The notes beneath the pieces are model-generated. The model searched no databases. It had not been told where the DNA came from and saw only the letters and a list, made by a program, of their open reading frames with translations. A program made the translations under genes and the position numbers. A stretch of 64,000 bases of DNA from Pegethrix bostrychoides GSE-TBD4-15B (GTDB taxonomy: Bacteria; Cyanobacteriota; Cyanobacteriia; Elainellales; Elainellaceae). Positions within the stretch are counted from its first letter, which is position 1; every line of letters starts with the position of its first letter. This document shows positions 6,526-33,637 of the stretch, piece after piece. The DNA lies in assembly GCA_019359155.1 (NCBI GenBank), contig JAHHHV010000071.1:1-64000 (forward strand). Reading direction: 5' to 3'.

Positions 6526-8100
6526 CTAGCGACTCAGCGCTTCTGCCTTAGCTGGAACCACCTGCCGATCTTGCTCTGCTCGATAGTCAGCGAGCTGTGC
6601 CTCAATCTGGGCGCGGACAATCTGACGGTACTCAATGAAATGCTCGGCGTGAGCGCAGACTGTGACGTAGTGATCCCAAACGCCAGGATTTTGTCGCAAA
6701 ATGCTGAAGAGCTGCTGCCAAAACTGCCAGCGCGTACTGCGCTTGCAGCCCTGCCGCCAGACGACAATTGCTAGCGCCCACAGGTCAGGGCGGCTGGGCA
6801 ACCGAAACGGTACGGCGCAAGTCGAAGGCGCAAGGTGCAAAAAGTGGCGGTAGGTGCGCGCTAAAAAGCGGCTGGGTTCGTAGAGCGTGCAGAAGGCGTG
6901 AACGTATTCCTGAGCAATCTCTTCGACCGGGCGCGTCGGCACAAAGTTCATCAGCGAAAACTGGTTGCCGTCGCTCTTGTTGTTATGTAGACGGCCTTCT
7001 TTTTCGAGCCGATGCCAGAGAGCGGTGTTGGGCAAAGCTTGCAGCAGGCCAAACACGGCGGTTGGGATCGCAGTTTTTTCGACAAACTCAATGATTCGGT
7101 CGCCTGCGCCCGTCCTCTCACCGTCAAAGCCAATGATGAAGCCAGCCATGATCCGCAGCCCCGCCCGGTTGATCTTATCGACCGACTCCTCCAGCGAGCT
7201 GCGCGTGTTCTGAAACTTCTTGGTGAGTTCCAGGCTGTCGGCGTCCGGGGTTTCGATGCCCAGAAACACCGCGTTGAAGTTGCAGGCCATCATCAGCTCT
7301 AGCAGCTCGTCGTCCTGCGCCAGATCCACCGAGGCCTCGGTGTTAAAGCTAAATGGATAGTCGTGCGCTGCCATCCAGCCCTTCAGCTCCTGCAAAAACA
7401 GCTTGACGTTACGCTTGTTGCCAATAAAGTTGTCGTCTACCATGAACACCGCTCGCCGCCAGCCCAGCTCGTAGAGGCAGTCCAGCTCTTTCAAAAGCTG
7501 CGCCGGGGTTTTGGTGCGCGGCTTGCGGCCATAGAGCACAATGATGTCGCAGAACTCGCACTGGAAGGGGCAACCCCGCGAGAACTGCACCGACATCGAA
7601 TCATAGGCATCCAGCTCCAGCAGGTCGTAGCGCGGCACGGGCGTGGTGGTCACGTCGGGTCTTTCACCGTCTTTGGCGCGAAACGTCCCGAAGGTCTGGC
7701 CTTGCTGCACCGCCTCGACAAACATCGGAATCGTGATTTCGCCTTCGTCCAAAACCAAATAGTCCGCCTCAACCACATCTTCAGGCACTGAGGTCGGGTA
7801 GGGGCCACCTACAGCCACCCGCTTGCCGCGCCGCTTGGCTTCATGGATCTGATCGAGCAGATCGGCCTTCTGGACAATCATCGCCGAGAGGATCACCAGA
7901 TCTGCCCAGTCCCATTCGGCTTCAGTCACTTCGCGCACATTATGGTCAACCAGCTTGTACTCCCATGCCTGGGGCAAGATGGCGGCGGCGGTGATCAAGC
8001 CCAGCGGCGGCAGCAGCACCTTGCGACCTACGAGATCGAGAATTTTCTCAAACGACCAGAACGTTTTGGGAAACAGGGGATAGAGCAGCAAAACCCGCAT
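6526..8100 (-). CDS. B12-binding radical SAM protein with DUF4070 C-terminus
   Basis: 524-residue enzyme. The N-terminal third is a cobalamin-binding Rossmann-like domain (MRVLLLYPLFPKTFWSFEK onward, with VAVGGPYPTSVPE). The radical SAM cluster motif is Cys177-x3-Cys181-x2-Cys184. The C-terminal part matches DUF4070. The ATG at 8100 is chosen because the conserved family start MRVLLLYP begins there; an upstream in-frame extension to 8223 is not family-like. The family includes many uncharacterised cyanobacterial paralogues; the sequence does not resemble the hopanoid methylase HpnP closely enough to name it. Confidence 0.9.
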   Translation of the reverse strand: MRVLLLYPLFPKTFWSFEKILDLVGRKVLLPPLGLITAAAILPQAWEYKLVDHNVREVTEAEWDWADLVILSAMIVQKADLLDQIHEAKRRGKRVAVGGPYPTSVPEDVVEADYLVLDEGEITIPMFVEAVQQGQTFGTFRAKDGERPDVTTTPVPRYDLLELDAYDSMSVQFSRGCPFQCEFCDIIVLYGRKPRTKTPAQLLKELDCLYELGWRRAVFMVDDNFIGNKRNVKLFLQELKGWMAAHDYPFSFNTEASVDLAQDDELLELMMACNFNAVFLGIETPDADSLELTKKFQNTRSSLEESVDKINRAGLRIMAGFIIGFDGERTGAGDRIIEFVEKTAIPTAVFGLLQALPNTALWHRLEKEGRLHNNKSDGNQFSLMNFVPTRPVEEIAQEYVHAFCTLYEPSRFLARTYRHFLHLAPSTCAVPFRLPSRPDLWALAIVVWRQGCKRSTRWQFWQQLFSILRQNPGVWDHYVTVCAHAEHFIEYRQIVRAQIEAQLADYRAEQDRQVVPAKAEALSR

Positions 8101-28478: not shown

Positions 28479-30779
28479 GTGACCCTTCAAAACGCAGATC
28501 AGAACGCAGAAATTCAAGCCTTGATTCACGGCATCGACGAGGTGTTGAGCAAAAACACGCCTCGCTTGCCCTGGGTGATGTCTAACGACGCGCTTCAGCA
28601 GCGACATGTACTAGAACAGGCACGACAGTATTTGGGATCATTGCAGCAGCAGCAGGTCAATCGGCAGCTGCAAGCTGGAATACCGCCTTCGCTACAGGCC
28701 AATCCAGCCAGTCCAGATGCCCAAGCTCCCGGTCAGGCTCCCGGTCAGGTTCCCAGTCCAGCCCCCAGTCCAGCCGGTCAGGCCTCAGCCGAGTCAGCTC
28801 AGCAGGTGTTGCAGGCCGTCTTGCAGGAGATGAACTACTGGCGGGTGAATATGCTTCAGCCGCTGCGGACTGAAATTGACTCGTTGCAGCGCCAGCGCGA
28901 GCTGCTGAGCCAAGAAGTGCGGCAGTTGGAAGGGCGGCAGCAGGCGCTTTCTGGCAGCTCAAGCCAAAACCAGCAGCTCATGGAGTTTTTGCAGGCGGCG
29001 ATGGGGCAGATGCAGGCGAATTTATCGGGGCAGGTGACGCAGATGATTGCCAATCTGCCTGCTCAGGCTGCCCTACCCGCCGCAAATCAAAATTTGCTGA
29101 GTTCGGCAGAGCGGGTCGCCCAAACTCAGCCCACTCAGGCGCTGACCCAGGTGCAGTCCGATCAGCTGATGCTGAAGCTCGACTCTACACTGCAAATTAT
29201 TTTTGAGTCGCTGAATCGCAATGTCCAGGCTTACCAGGAATCGATGGAGCAAGGGCTAGATCGAATGCATAATCTGGGGCAGCAGGGCGAGGCGATGTTC
29301 ACGTTTTTGGTGAATCGGCTGGCACAGCAGCTAGGGCGCGAGGCCACCTCGTTTCTGCAATCGGGTGCTGAGGTGGTCAATCCGACAGGCAATTCAGCTG
29401 GCAATTCAGCAGCCCAAAATGCTCCAACTAGCGCTTCAAATCGCACTCAGGGCGACGCGAGTTCAGATGCCGAATCGGTTGCTGCGTCAGCTGATTCACT
29501 GTTGGCTGATTCACCGTTCAAGGTTGCTGATTTTTTAAGCCAGGTGCCCGAACCGCGCTCGACAGCTTCGTTTGTGCCGGCAGTGCCCTTTAATCTGTCA
29601 GAGGAAGTGCTAGATATTGCCGGATTAGACTTGGCAGATCTGCCCGAAGATCCAGACAGCGAGCTGGCAGCGGAGATCAATCAGCTCGATTTAGCGACGA
29701 TTTCTGATCCAGAGCCTCATTCCACGCTTGATGCCGGAGAGCCATTTGACCTGTTCTCTGGTACTCAGCCGTTGCCTGCAACAGCCACAACAGATGGCTC
29801 AGCCCGCTTACCTGAGGCAAATCTCGCGACTGCCAGAGACGGTGGCAGTCGCGATCTCGAATCAGCGCTCGATCTACTCAATCAGCTCAGCGCCGAGATG
29901 CAGGCAGATGCGGCGCTAGGTGAGCTGGAGTCGTCAGCCTCAGGTGATTTGGCCGGAAATTTGGCCAGAGATTTGGCCGCAGATTTGGCGGCGGCTCCAG
30001 AACTGTCTAGAGAGCCAGAATTTATTGCTGCGCCTGACTCGCTCTATGATGATGCCTTCTACAGCAACCTGTTCCAACTCCCAGTAGCCAACCCAGATGC
30101 GGCTCTTGATCTAACTCCCGATCTAGCAGGAAGCATGACGCTGGAGCAAGCCTGGTTTGACGGCTTGGGCGATCCGGCACAGTCAGCCTCTCCGGTGAAC
30201 CCAGCATCTCAACCCGAGCCTCAATCCGCGATGCAAAGCCCTGTACCCGCGCCGAATTCTTCAGTTAGTCAGTCGCTTGACGCTTGGCGACTAGACCAGC
30301 AGGCTGTTGATCCGGCGCTACCCGCTCAACCTGCCATACCGCTGGCGACTGAAACGATTTTTGATCTGGCTGCCGACCTTGCGCCTGCCGCCGCTCCATC
30401 TGCGGGTAGCTTTGACCAAAGCCTGCAAGCGCTGATTCGCGACAGTGCGTTTGAGGCGATGCCCGTGAACGAAGCGCCAGACGCAGCCGAGGTTGATCTG
30501 GGCATGACGCTGGATGCACTGGCTCCGCTCGGTAGTCCAGTCGAGCCGCAGCCCCCAGTTCGATCTGAGCCGCCTGCTGTGACGATTGAAGGCTTGGAGG
30601 GACTGTTTGAAGATCTGCCCGATCTAACACCGAGTGATGCTAGTCCATCCCAGGAAAACCAGACTCAGGTTGAGGCAATGGCCGATCTGTTCTTGCAGGT
30701 TGGCGCTATTGATCCATCGACAGATACGTTGGTAGATCTAGATTCAGAACCCGAAACATCCGAAAAAAAAAACTTCTGA
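28479..30779 (+). CDS. Large acidic coiled-coil protein, probable N-terminal half of a split gene
   Basis: 766 residues. Residues 1-60 are helical (ALIHGIDEVLSKNTPRLPWVM), followed by a Pro/Ala/Gln linker, a coiled coil near 118-157 (MNYWRVNMLQPLRTEIDSL), and a helical block around 230-295. From about 300 to the end it is Asp/Glu/Ala/Pro-rich and disordered, punctuated by short hydrophobic motifs such as EGLFEDLPDL and MADLFLQVG. It ends four codons after entering a run of ten A bases (30763-30772). The frame one step back is open from there directly into the next reading frame, which has the same acidic composition. I do not recognise a named family. GTG start at 28479. Confidence 0.8.
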   Translation: MTLQNADQNAEIQALIHGIDEVLSKNTPRLPWVMSNDALQQRHVLEQARQYLGSLQQQQVNRQLQAGIPPSLQANPASPDAQAPGQAPGQVPSPAPSPAGQASAESAQQVLQAVLQEMNYWRVNMLQPLRTEIDSLQRQRELLSQEVRQLEGRQQALSGSSSQNQQLMEFLQAAMGQMQANLSGQVTQMIANLPAQAALPAANQNLLSSAERVAQTQPTQALTQVQSDQLMLKLDSTLQIIFESLNRNVQAYQESMEQGLDRMHNLGQQGEAMFTFLVNRLAQQLGREATSFLQSGAEVVNPTGNSAGNSAAQNAPTSASNRTQGDASSDAESVAASADSLLADSPFKVADFLSQVPEPRSTASFVPAVPFNLSEEVLDIAGLDLADLPEDPDSELAAEINQLDLATISDPEPHSTLDAGEPFDLFSGTQPLPATATTDGSARLPEANLATARDGGSRDLESALDLLNQLSAEMQADAALGELESSASGDLAGNLARDLAADLAAAPELSREPEFIAAPDSLYDDAFYSNLFQLPVANPDAALDLTPDLAGSMTLEQAWFDGLGDPAQSASPVNPASQPEPQSAMQSPVPAPNSSVSQSLDAWRLDQQAVDPALPAQPAIPLATETIFDLAADLAPAAAPSAGSFDQSLQALIRDSAFEAMPVNEAPDAAEVDLGMTLDALAPLGSPVEPQPPVRSEPPAVTIEGLEGLFEDLPDLTPSDASPSQENQTQVEAMADLFLQVGAIDPSTDTLVDLDSEPETSEKKNF
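30763..30772 (+). other. A10 homopolymer at the junction of the two halves
   Basis: Ten consecutive A bases. Reading one base back (ribosomal -1 shift) or adding one A by transcript slippage joins the upstream frame to KKLLSDPSADLLADEPLI and onward without a stop. This can equally be a homopolymer sequencing error or a recent mutation. Confidence 0.85.
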
Positions 30780-30799
30780 GTGACCCGTCAGCTGATCTC

Positions 30800-33493
30800 T
30801 TGGCTGACGAGCCGCTGATCACGGACTGGGTTGCGCCTGCGGGCACGCTGGCAGATTTGATTCAAGATCTCAGCTCAGGCTCTTCTGACGTTGTGAGAGA
30901 GACTGATCCAGAAGCTTTTCCAGCAGCCTTTCCAGAAATTTCATCTGGTGACTCTTTAGCGGCCTTCATGTCAGATTGGTCTGATGCTAATGTATCGTCA
31001 GAACCTCCTGCTGAAGCAGCACTCTCGGATTGGCTGCTGCCAGAAGTTCCTGAGCCAGAAATCACAGAGCCAGAAATCACAGAGCCAGAAACCGCCGAAT
31101 CAGACCGCTCATCAGAAACCGATGATTGGGCTGATTTACTTGAACTCAGTCCAGATTTGGTGATTGGCGCTGAGTTTGAGTCGGGATTTGAGCCCGTGAT
31201 TCCCTCAGAGTCAGATAGCAGTATTGACTTCGACCTGAGTTCCATTGACTTTGCGCTAGCCGATCCGGCTGCCCAAACGCTGGCTGACTTTACCGCCGAT
31301 CCATTCGATTTTGCAAGTCTTCCTAGCGCTGATGTCGCTGAGCCTGTTGCGGAACTTGCTGAGTTTGAACCTAAGCCTGAACTGGCTGTTGAATCTGAGC
31401 CTGAGCTGGAACCAGCTGTTGAACCAGCCCCAGTCGTCGAACCAGTCGTCGAATCTGAGCTTGTTGAGTATGTTGTAGAACCCGTTGCAGAACCTGAGCT
31501 GAGTGAGCCAGCAGCGTTAGAGTTGGCCGAGTTACAGCCCGTTGAATCACAGCCCGTTGCGCTATTAGCCCCAGACTCCAGCACCGACCTAGATGCTGAT
31601 ACCTTTGCCCAACTCGACCTGCTTTTGGCCGAGCCACCCGCCGCGATGCCGCCACAAGGCCGCTCAGCTGAATGGGCAATTGGGATTGATCTCGGCACAA
31701 CAGGCATCTCCGCTGTCCTGCTCAATCAAACTACGCATCAGCTCTATCCGATTTACTGGCAGGATGCCGCCGCCAAAAAGCAGTTCCGGCGCTCAACTAC
31801 CGTCATCGCCCAGCGGCCTTTCACTTGCCCCACCGCATCGCCGCTAGATACGCTCCGCAGCGATGCAGACTCGACGCTCAGCCTCAGCGACTGGAAGCCT
31901 TACTTAAATTTGGCCATTCCGCATCATTCGCCCCAGACTTCGCAGTGGGAGCCAGTGCTTCAGTGGTCTGAAGCTCAGACGCTCTCACTCCGCAGTCTCC
32001 AGGAAGTTTTGCAGCAGCTTTTGCTCAGCCTCACCCAGCCTGAATCGCTGACTTGTAGAGCACTGGGTCTAGAAGCCGCAGCGTTTCAGACCGTTTTATC
32101 TAACCTCTCCAGCGTCGTGGTGGGCTACCCCAGCAGTGCCTCAGACACCTACAGCTTCAACCTGCGCGAGGTGATTTTGCAGGTCGGCTTAGTGAGTCGG
32201 CCTGAGCAGATTGTGTTTGTCGAAGAAGCGATTGCGGCACTGCTCTCGGCACTGCCTGCGGCGAACGGCGAGCGATTGACCCTCTCCAATTCAGCCCAGG
32301 ACGGCAGCGGCCATTTACACAACGCTGACTGGCAGGGCTGCACGCTGGTTCTGACCGCCGGAGCCAGCCTCAGCGAACTACTCTTGGTGACGCTGCCAAC
32401 ACAGCTCCAAACCCTCACCCATACTGATTTCTATCTGCGCGGCTTGGCCTACGGCGGCGAAGGGCTAGACCAAGATACGATCTGCCAGCTGATCTATCCG
32501 ATGCTGGCCGTGCCGTCTGAGCCTGACGTCACCTCGCCCGTCCAGGCTGATTTTGAGACTGAGCTAACCATCCCCGCAGACCTGCTGGCCGGGTTAGCGC
32601 TGCCCGATGCTGCCGATCCGGCTCCCGGTATCCGCCCTCTGCTGCGGCAGCGACTGGTTGATTCGACCGCTGGCGAACATCTGCTCAACGCCGCCAGAGC
32701 GCTGAAAATCACGCTGCAATACCAGAGTCAGTGCAGTTTGCGCTTGGGCGACAGGCTGCTCAGCTTCGAGCGCTCAGACCTCACCAGCCGCGTCTTGCTG
32801 CCTTACGTGCAGCAGCTCAACCGCGACCTCAATGCTCTCTTGGCGCAGACCAACACCACTGCTGCCGCTGTCAACCAGGTAATCTGCACGGGTGGCACGG
32901 CCTCGCTGAACGCAGTCACCCGCTGGCTGCGCCAAAAGCTGCCCAACGCCACGATCATCCAGGATACCTATGCCCGCTCCAGCCTCAGCGCCCGCTTTGA
33001 CCACGGCATCTCTAGCTGTAGCCGCATTGCCTACGGCTTGGCCGCGCTGCCGCTACACCCTCAGGTGATTGACGAGTCTCGGCATCGCTACAGCGACTAC
33101 TTTTTGCTGAAGGCGCTGTTGCAGGTGATGTCACCCCAACCCCAACCGCTGGAGGCAATTTTGACGGGGCTAGAGCAGCAGGGCATTGACACCCAGCTCT
33201 GCCGCCTGCGGATTTTAGCGCTGCTGGAAGGCTACCTGCCGCCCGGGCTGGTGCCAAGTCCATCTGATCTGGCGCTATTGACTGCTGCATCTGCCGCAAA
33301 CCCAGACTATCAGGCAATTCAGCTTACGCCGCTGTTCTACAAGTCTGCGGATAAAGCCGAACGCAGCTATGCGGCTAATCGCGCCCAGTGGGACTATCTA
33401 CAACGCTATCTGGAAACTCTGCTAGCTGATACCGAGCAAAGGCTCAACCAACCGTTAGGACTGAATTTGCACGAAAATCTGGATATTGCTTGA
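30800..33493 (+). CDS. Hsp70/actin-like ATPase-fold protein, probable C-terminal half of a split gene
   Basis: 897 residues from a TTG at 30800, but the frame is open back to the A10 run and no good ribosome-binding site precedes the TTG. Residues 1-285 are acidic, repetitive and disordered (EPEIT repeats, ITDW and LSDW motifs). From about 292 an Hsp70-like nucleotide-binding domain begins: phosphate-1 loop AIGIDLGTTGISAVLLN, then VVVGYPSSASDTYSFNLREV, EEAIAALLSALP, LAYGGEGLDQDTICQLI and an adenosine motif VICTGGTASLNAVTRWLRQ near 694-712. The phosphate-2 loop, normally DxGGGT, reads LVLTAGASLSELLLV (about 516-530), so hydrolysis may be lost. No substrate-binding domain follows. Confidence 0.82.
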   Translation: MADEPLITDWVAPAGTLADLIQDLSSGSSDVVRETDPEAFPAAFPEISSGDSLAAFMSDWSDANVSSEPPAEAALSDWLLPEVPEPEITEPEITEPETAESDRSSETDDWADLLELSPDLVIGAEFESGFEPVIPSESDSSIDFDLSSIDFALADPAAQTLADFTADPFDFASLPSADVAEPVAELAEFEPKPELAVESEPELEPAVEPAPVVEPVVESELVEYVVEPVAEPELSEPAALELAELQPVESQPVALLAPDSSTDLDADTFAQLDLLLAEPPAAMPPQGRSAEWAIGIDLGTTGISAVLLNQTTHQLYPIYWQDAAAKKQFRRSTTVIAQRPFTCPTASPLDTLRSDADSTLSLSDWKPYLNLAIPHHSPQTSQWEPVLQWSEAQTLSLRSLQEVLQQLLLSLTQPESLTCRALGLEAAAFQTVLSNLSSVVVGYPSSASDTYSFNLREVILQVGLVSRPEQIVFVEEAIAALLSALPAANGERLTLSNSAQDGSGHLHNADWQGCTLVLTAGASLSELLLVTLPTQLQTLTHTDFYLRGLAYGGEGLDQDTICQLIYPMLAVPSEPDVTSPVQADFETELTIPADLLAGLALPDAADPAPGIRPLLRQRLVDSTAGEHLLNAARALKITLQYQSQCSLRLGDRLLSFERSDLTSRVLLPYVQQLNRDLNALLAQTNTTAAAVNQVICTGGTASLNAVTRWLRQKLPNATIIQDTYARSSLSARFDHGISSCSRIAYGLAALPLHPQVIDESRHRYSDYFLLKALLQVMSPQPQPLEAILTGLEQQGIDTQLCRLRILALLEGYLPPGLVPSPSDLALLTAASAANPDYQAIQLTPLFYKSADKAERSYAANRAQWDYLQRYLETLLADTEQRLNQPLGLNLHENLDIA

Positions 33494-33637
33494 CTGCGGG
33501 ATGAAAGCGAAAACGGCATCGAGGAACTGCCCGAACCTGCTGCACTGGCGCAGTCGGCCCTGAGCGAGCTGGAAGCGGCGATCGCAGAGCTTCAAAGCAT
33601 TCTGACAGAATTAGGGGAAGAGTTTGTTGAGTTATAA
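33494..33637 (+). other. In-frame coding-like extension after the TGA stop
   Basis: Immediately after the TGA that ends the Hsp70-like frame, the same frame stays open for 47 codons to TAA at 33635-33637. It encodes an amphipathic acidic helix (ENGIEELPEPAAL, then ALSELEAAIAELQSILTELG). This reads like a true protein end, so the TGA may be a recent nonsense mutation, an error or a read-through site. Confidence 0.55.

Follow-up and report, generated by a model that had tools for sequence, protein, structure and literature searches.

A conserved run of nine to eleven A bases as a probable transcriptional slippage site in a cyanobacterial gene for a protein with an Hsp70-like domain

Two large reading frames that meet at a run of ten A bases in Pegethrix bostrychoides GSE-TBD4-15B most probably belong to one cellular gene, in which the run would act as a site of programmed transcriptional slippage (transcriptional realignment, PTR). 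We put the probability of this reading, judged from the comparison of homologous sequences, at about 0.8. The window, i.e. the whole stretch of DNA that was analysed, is 64,000 nucleotides long (positions 1 to 64,000 of contig JAHHHV010000071.1) and contains the following features.

28479..30779, + strand: reading frame of the short form, GTG start, 766 amino acids; N-terminal coiled-coil domain, long acidic low-complexity linker, end EKKNF*
28500..29078, + strand: conserved N-terminal helical (probably coiled-coil) domain; alignment and AF2 model, no Pfam family
30763..30772, + strand: A10, the putative slippery run
30777..30779, + strand: TGA closing the templated (unslipped) frame, four bases past the run
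30781..30783, + strand: TGA closing the third frame (reached by transcripts that lack one A or carry two additional ones)
30773..33493, + strand: C-part, which needs one extra A; acidic linker and Hsp70-like domain, TGA at 33491-33493
31664..33490, + strand: Hsp70-fold (actin-like) nucleotide-binding domain with the phosphate-1 motif GIDLGTTG; AF2, Foldseek and alignment

The first-pass annotation had proposed that the A10 run joins two large frames into a protein of about 1,671 residues, and both the coordinates and the open frame were confirmed. The translation of the GTG frame ends in ...SEPETSEKKNF*. Shifted back by one step, the reading frame stays open across the run (30713 to 33493) and reads KKKLLSDPSADLLADEP...; with one A added, 765 and 906 codons give a single protein of 1,671 codons, in which the residues following the run are LLSDPSADLLADEP... 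instead of the C-terminus of the short form. The TTG at 30800, previously recorded as the only start of the second frame, is merely the first "start" codon of the C-part frame; in the window, the interval from the run to the C domain contains neither an ATG nor a GTG preceded by an SD-like site. Among the 39 two-frame loci described below, 24 have no ATG at all in this interval, and in only seven does an SD-like site accompany an ATG or GTG. On these grounds, initiation within the gene at TTG 30800 was rejected.

According to the proposed mechanism, RNA polymerase would slip on the run of 9-11 A and produce mRNAs with differing numbers of A. In the window the unslipped mRNA would give the 766-residue, N-only protein; one extra A (or 1+3n) would give the product of 1,671 residues that includes the Hsp70-like domain, and the other lengths would lead to a stop within a few codons. 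Slippage would instead supply the short form in those relatives whose templated frame is the productive one. The two forms could meet via their common coiled-coil N-part, so that the run would set the ratio of scaffold-only to nucleotide-binding subunits. We infer the occurrence and the efficiency of slippage as well as the assembly of both forms through the N-part, the assembly and the ratio by analogy with DnaX tau/gamma and TssM.

Homologues of the C-part (31664-33490) were sought first among 117 relatives and afterwards, with a profile, across 390 genomes of the class. The resulting sample consists of 101 loci with upstream DNA, the window included, in which the N- and C-domains were placed by profiles (labels: L, locus; G, genome; g, genus; f, family-level group, the window's family being f1). 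The length of the A-run in homologues had been suggested earlier as a check, and 69 of the 101 loci turned out to carry a run of 9, 10 or 11 A at the N/C junction (12, 50 and 7 loci, respectively), with neither A8 nor A12 among the 69. The run-bearing loci span 16 groups (f1, f3, f4, f6, f7, f9, f10, f11, f16, f18, f19, f20, f25, f28, f32 and f34). In all of them the run sits between the conserved coiled-coil N-part and the Hsp70-fold C-part, and its flanks have diverged. Both a homopolymer of about nine or more A or T in a transcribed gene, here A9, A10 or A11, and its retention among homologues against diverged flanks are characteristic of PTR sites.

The conservation of the run is far beyond chance, since the A10 at 30763-30772 is the sole A10 on both strands of the 5,724,334-base genome and is kept at the junction of the homologues, where it is often the only A10 of the respective genome too. 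Apart from the junction runs, the 1,026,064 bases of the first 81 loci contain only two stretches of at least nine A and three of at least nine T. Outside the run, lysine is encoded by 428 AAA and 359 AAG codons among 55,030 codons, which makes three consecutive AAA codons very unlikely to occur by chance. A 9-A run whose length is conserved among homologues has been considered very likely to reflect purposeful slippage (PMC1088944).

A frame that breaks at a lone A10, seen in one draft genome, is typical of an error, and further breaks in L052, L070, L091, L128 and L130, together with an assembly N in L035, would be in keeping with sequencing or assembly error or with a decayed gene. The same break is found, however, at the same A-run in independent genomes from many families. 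Several of the genomes that carry the run are single contigs (G011, G040, G053, G059, G126, G171, G206 and G280), so the frame breaks are not errors, and both halves of the gene are conserved across families. Sequencing error, which the first-pass annotation had kept as an alternative, is thus ruled out as a general explanation for a run that recurs in 69 loci; error or a pseudogene is rejected by the conservation of the run and of both halves, and we regard the probability of either as negligible.

The shift that is needed to reach the C-part is not the same in all loci: one additional A is required in 39 of the 69, none in 17 and one A fewer in 12. The remaining locus, L091, has a broken C domain and no shift class. 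The register of the run within the codons differs between loci, and on a tree of 78 C-domains (support by SH-aLRT only) at least 13 changes of the needed shift occurred without loss of the run. We note that L091 (G304), from a nearly closed genome, keeps its A10 but has a C domain broken by further stops; this copy seems to be decaying.

Orthologues that differ in the direction of the shift point to PTR, while those that do not differ point to programmed ribosomal frameshifting, PRF (PMC3711429). The variation among orthologues (+1/0/-1, 39/17/12) is therefore our reason for preferring PTR to a -1 ribosomal frameshift. In addition, the majority of loci in which one A must be added fits PTR, because insertions prevail when transcription slips in A-runs (PMC5574713). 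The alternative, i.e. that a -1 frameshift of the ribosome on A_AAA_AAC (30767-30773) joins the frames, is unlikely in our opinion. The heptamer does lie in the correct register in the window, 39 loci need exactly this direction, and ribosomes are known to slide on A-runs (PMC4363877). SD-like 4-mers are also mildly enriched upstream of the run, at 15/55 loci (27%) against 12% in the control, and these could assist ribosomal frameshifting. The conserved shift direction expected of PRF is nevertheless absent: the run is kept even by the 12 loci in which the shift goes the opposite way and by the 17 in which no shift is needed. Seven bases would be enough for the heptamer, yet the shortest junction run has nine. 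No conserved RNA structure was found near the run, including downstream of it (mean z -0.2 to -0.5), and the closure of the third frame in the +1 loci, described below, would serve no role in a -1 frameshift. A ribosomal contribution on top of PTR may still exist.

The variation in frame could also be read as phase variation, in which replication slippage in the run toggles the long form between cells and the genomes were sampled in different states. Homopolymers are a hypermutable type of sequence, "on" genomes (17) as well as "off" genomes occur, and the needed shift is mixed within three genera (g19, g80 and g90). On the other hand, the state is concordant in seven multi-species genera, i.e. 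g1 (5/5), g4, g5, g12, g70 (4/4), g89 and g45 (3/3). In g1 the runs are A10 and A11 and all five loci are +1, and in g12 they are A10 and A9 and both loci are +1, which means that changes in length have been compensated. Moreover, the loci that are "off by +1" outnumber those that are "on" by more than two to one, and the bias towards +1 matches insertion by RNA polymerase. We consider phase variation very improbable.

Substitutions between close species are consistent with the translation of the stretch past the run. Third codon positions are favoured in most pairs, most clearly between the window and L033 (77, 61 and 121 substitutions at the three codon positions), as expected if this stretch is translated in the C frame.

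Transcriptional slippage would further be expected to go with early stops in the other frames, and these were found in all groups except f32. For the first set (55 loci), the distance from the run to the nearest alternative-frame stop averages 2.5 codons, compared to 7.6 codons for randomly chosen positions in the linker; for the further stop it is 10.8 compared to 39 codons (0 of 4,000 resamplings). With f32 excluded, the near stop always falls into a single frame, which is fixed with respect to the C-part (0 of 10,000 resamplings in each shift class). The closure of the third frame is significant in the +1 class only (29 of 10,000 resamplings, f32 excluded), which suggests that the need for one extra A is the older state. 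The Nostoc-like loci of f32 have their A10 in frame, and the other frames do not close unusually soon after it. Five loci of this group (L073, L074, L075, L079 and L082) keep an in-frame A10 (EKKKE) without close stops, and in their relatives the run is interrupted or lost; slippage may not be important in this group.

Taken together, the retention of the run within a narrow range of lengths, the mixed need for +1, 0 or -1 A and the closeness of the stops argue for the slippage that the first-pass annotation had suggested, with a short form of 766 residues and a full-length protein as its predicted products. We think it somewhat probable that the slippage site is as old as much of cyanobacterial diversity and sets the ratio of two proteoforms. 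Selection would then keep the A-run and the hidden stop rather than the frame, and orthologues would drift between a state in which slippage extends the protein and one in which slippage truncates it.

The run is absent in f13, f24, f21, f23 and part of f32, where the gene is mostly one fused frame (some loci end upstream at a contig edge). Its loss in f13, f24 and part of f32 means that it is not indispensable. In L099 and L100 the N- and C-parts are two separate genes with a gap between them, and the C-part has its own ATG. In f20, L113 retains an A9 (+1), and four other loci (L114, L116, L117 and L131) instead have AAGAAGGAATGA, with lysine codons AAG. At the junction of these four loci AAGAAGGA stands in place of the A-run, followed by an overlapping stop/start ATGA, i.e. 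the ATG of the C-part overlaps the stop of the N-part, and an SD-like AAGGA lies in front. The slippage site in f20 thus appears to have been exchanged for coupled translation (termination-reinitiation, AAGGA-ATGA).

Homologues in which the two parts are separate genes with their own starts had been named earlier as a case that would speak against the proposal. Such genes do exist, in the six loci just mentioned (L099, L100, L114, L116, L117 and L131), but the finding stands because all of them have lost the A-run. In the split and coupled lineages the N-only protein is made by ordinary means, and all six loci suggest that this protein is useful by itself. Jointly with the ancient origin of the slippage site, and with the same measured confidence, we propose that fused genes, split genes and termination-reinitiation are a series of natural replacements, each of which expresses this domain pair in its own manner.

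The AF2 model of the C-part (pLDDT 87.5, pTM 0.90) is confident and shows an Hsp70-type nucleotide-binding fold; its top Foldseek match is the DnaK nucleotide-binding domain (NBD) 5oby, with an E-value of 6.1e-13. Sequence-based searches were less informative: solved structures gave only weak Sse1/DnaK matches, HSP70/HscA likewise matched weakly in the sequence library, and PilM (PF11104, PilM_2) was rejected at 24.8 bits against a curated cut-off of 27. The C-part shares the fold and the phosphate-1 motif with the Hsp70/DnaK NBD. It differs in having only about 14% identity, in its fusion to a coiled-coil N-part by way of an acidic linker, and in the loss of the phosphate-2 aspartate (DLGGGT) in nearly all members. 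In the alignment column at C-domain residue 231 this aspartate is present in 3 of 31 rows by inspection and is replaced by Ser, Thr, Asn or others in about 28 of 31; the window has TAGAS. The "ATPase-like domain" of the first-pass annotation is therefore borne out with respect to its Hsp70-like fold. Given that most members lack the phosphate-2 aspartate, however, ATP hydrolysis is doubtful, and the sequence suggests a nucleotide-binding, poorly hydrolysing protein. The AF2 model of the N-part is all-helical and of low confidence (pLDDT 69, pTM 0.31); the N-part is probably a coiled-coil, and no reliable Pfam family was found for it.

A divergent regulator of the Crp family (cNMP-binding and HTH_Crp_2 domains) adjoins the gene in 45 loci from 31 genera and 12 families, e.g. 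at 6706-7482 (+) in L046, and genes for DUF2232 (a membrane protein) and DBI_PRT (a cobalamin-type phosphoribosyltransferase) follow behind the regulator. The window's family f1 is without the Crp-family neighbour. As the window has aroB and ispG in place of the common neighbours, no firm functional inference can be drawn from them.

The mechanism of PTR is already known, and it is the gene that is newly proposed as a case. In Thermus thermophilus an A9 in dnaX gives rise to tau and gamma by PTR (PMC1088944, PMC5009743). The cyanobacterial gene resembles dnaX (A9 in Thermus, A10 in Chlorobi) in its 9-10 A, in two products per cellular gene (here predicted) and in nearby stops in the other frames (PMC1088944, PMC5009743, PMC3711429); in-frame and two-frame organisations likewise both occur among orthologues. 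Unlike in dnaX, the protein is an unrelated one, and the run lies inside a low-complexity linker, is found in many families and shows all three shift needs. In Citrobacter rodentium an A11 in tssM (tssM1) yields two length variants by PTR, both of which are required (PMC4256274). The poly-A directly before a stop and the combination of a short and a full form are similar to our case, but tssM encodes a different protein and the site has been described in Citrobacter and Yersinia, not class-wide. The PTR sites of IS-element orfA/orfB (A9; A8-A10 in Nostoc) also join overlapping frames at an A-run in varying directions (PMC1088944, PMC3711429); those are mobile elements, whereas the cyanobacterial gene is single-copy and resident.

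To our knowledge, PTR has been confirmed in few bacterial genes that are resident, i.e. non-mobile. Our search, which had most subscription journals and the recoding-candidate databases outside its range, found neither a published report of this gene as a PTR case nor a named cyanobacterial PTR gene. The deep conservation of the site and its three frame states, together with the natural replacements, make the selective reason for slippage directly testable in laboratory cyanobacteria, and the finding draws attention to an uncharacterised Hsp70-like protein in many members of this group. Annotation pipelines are likely to label such genes as broken or split although they are probably intact.

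Finally, we note that in the window the frame past the TGA at 33491 is open for 47 further codons (LRDESENGIEELPEPAALAQSALSELEAAIAELQSILTELGEEFVEL) up to a TAA (33494-33637, + strand). No homologue of this extension was found at the other loci (best match unrelated, E-value 2), and homologous proteins terminate near the position of this TGA. The open stretch is probably a remnant of another gene.
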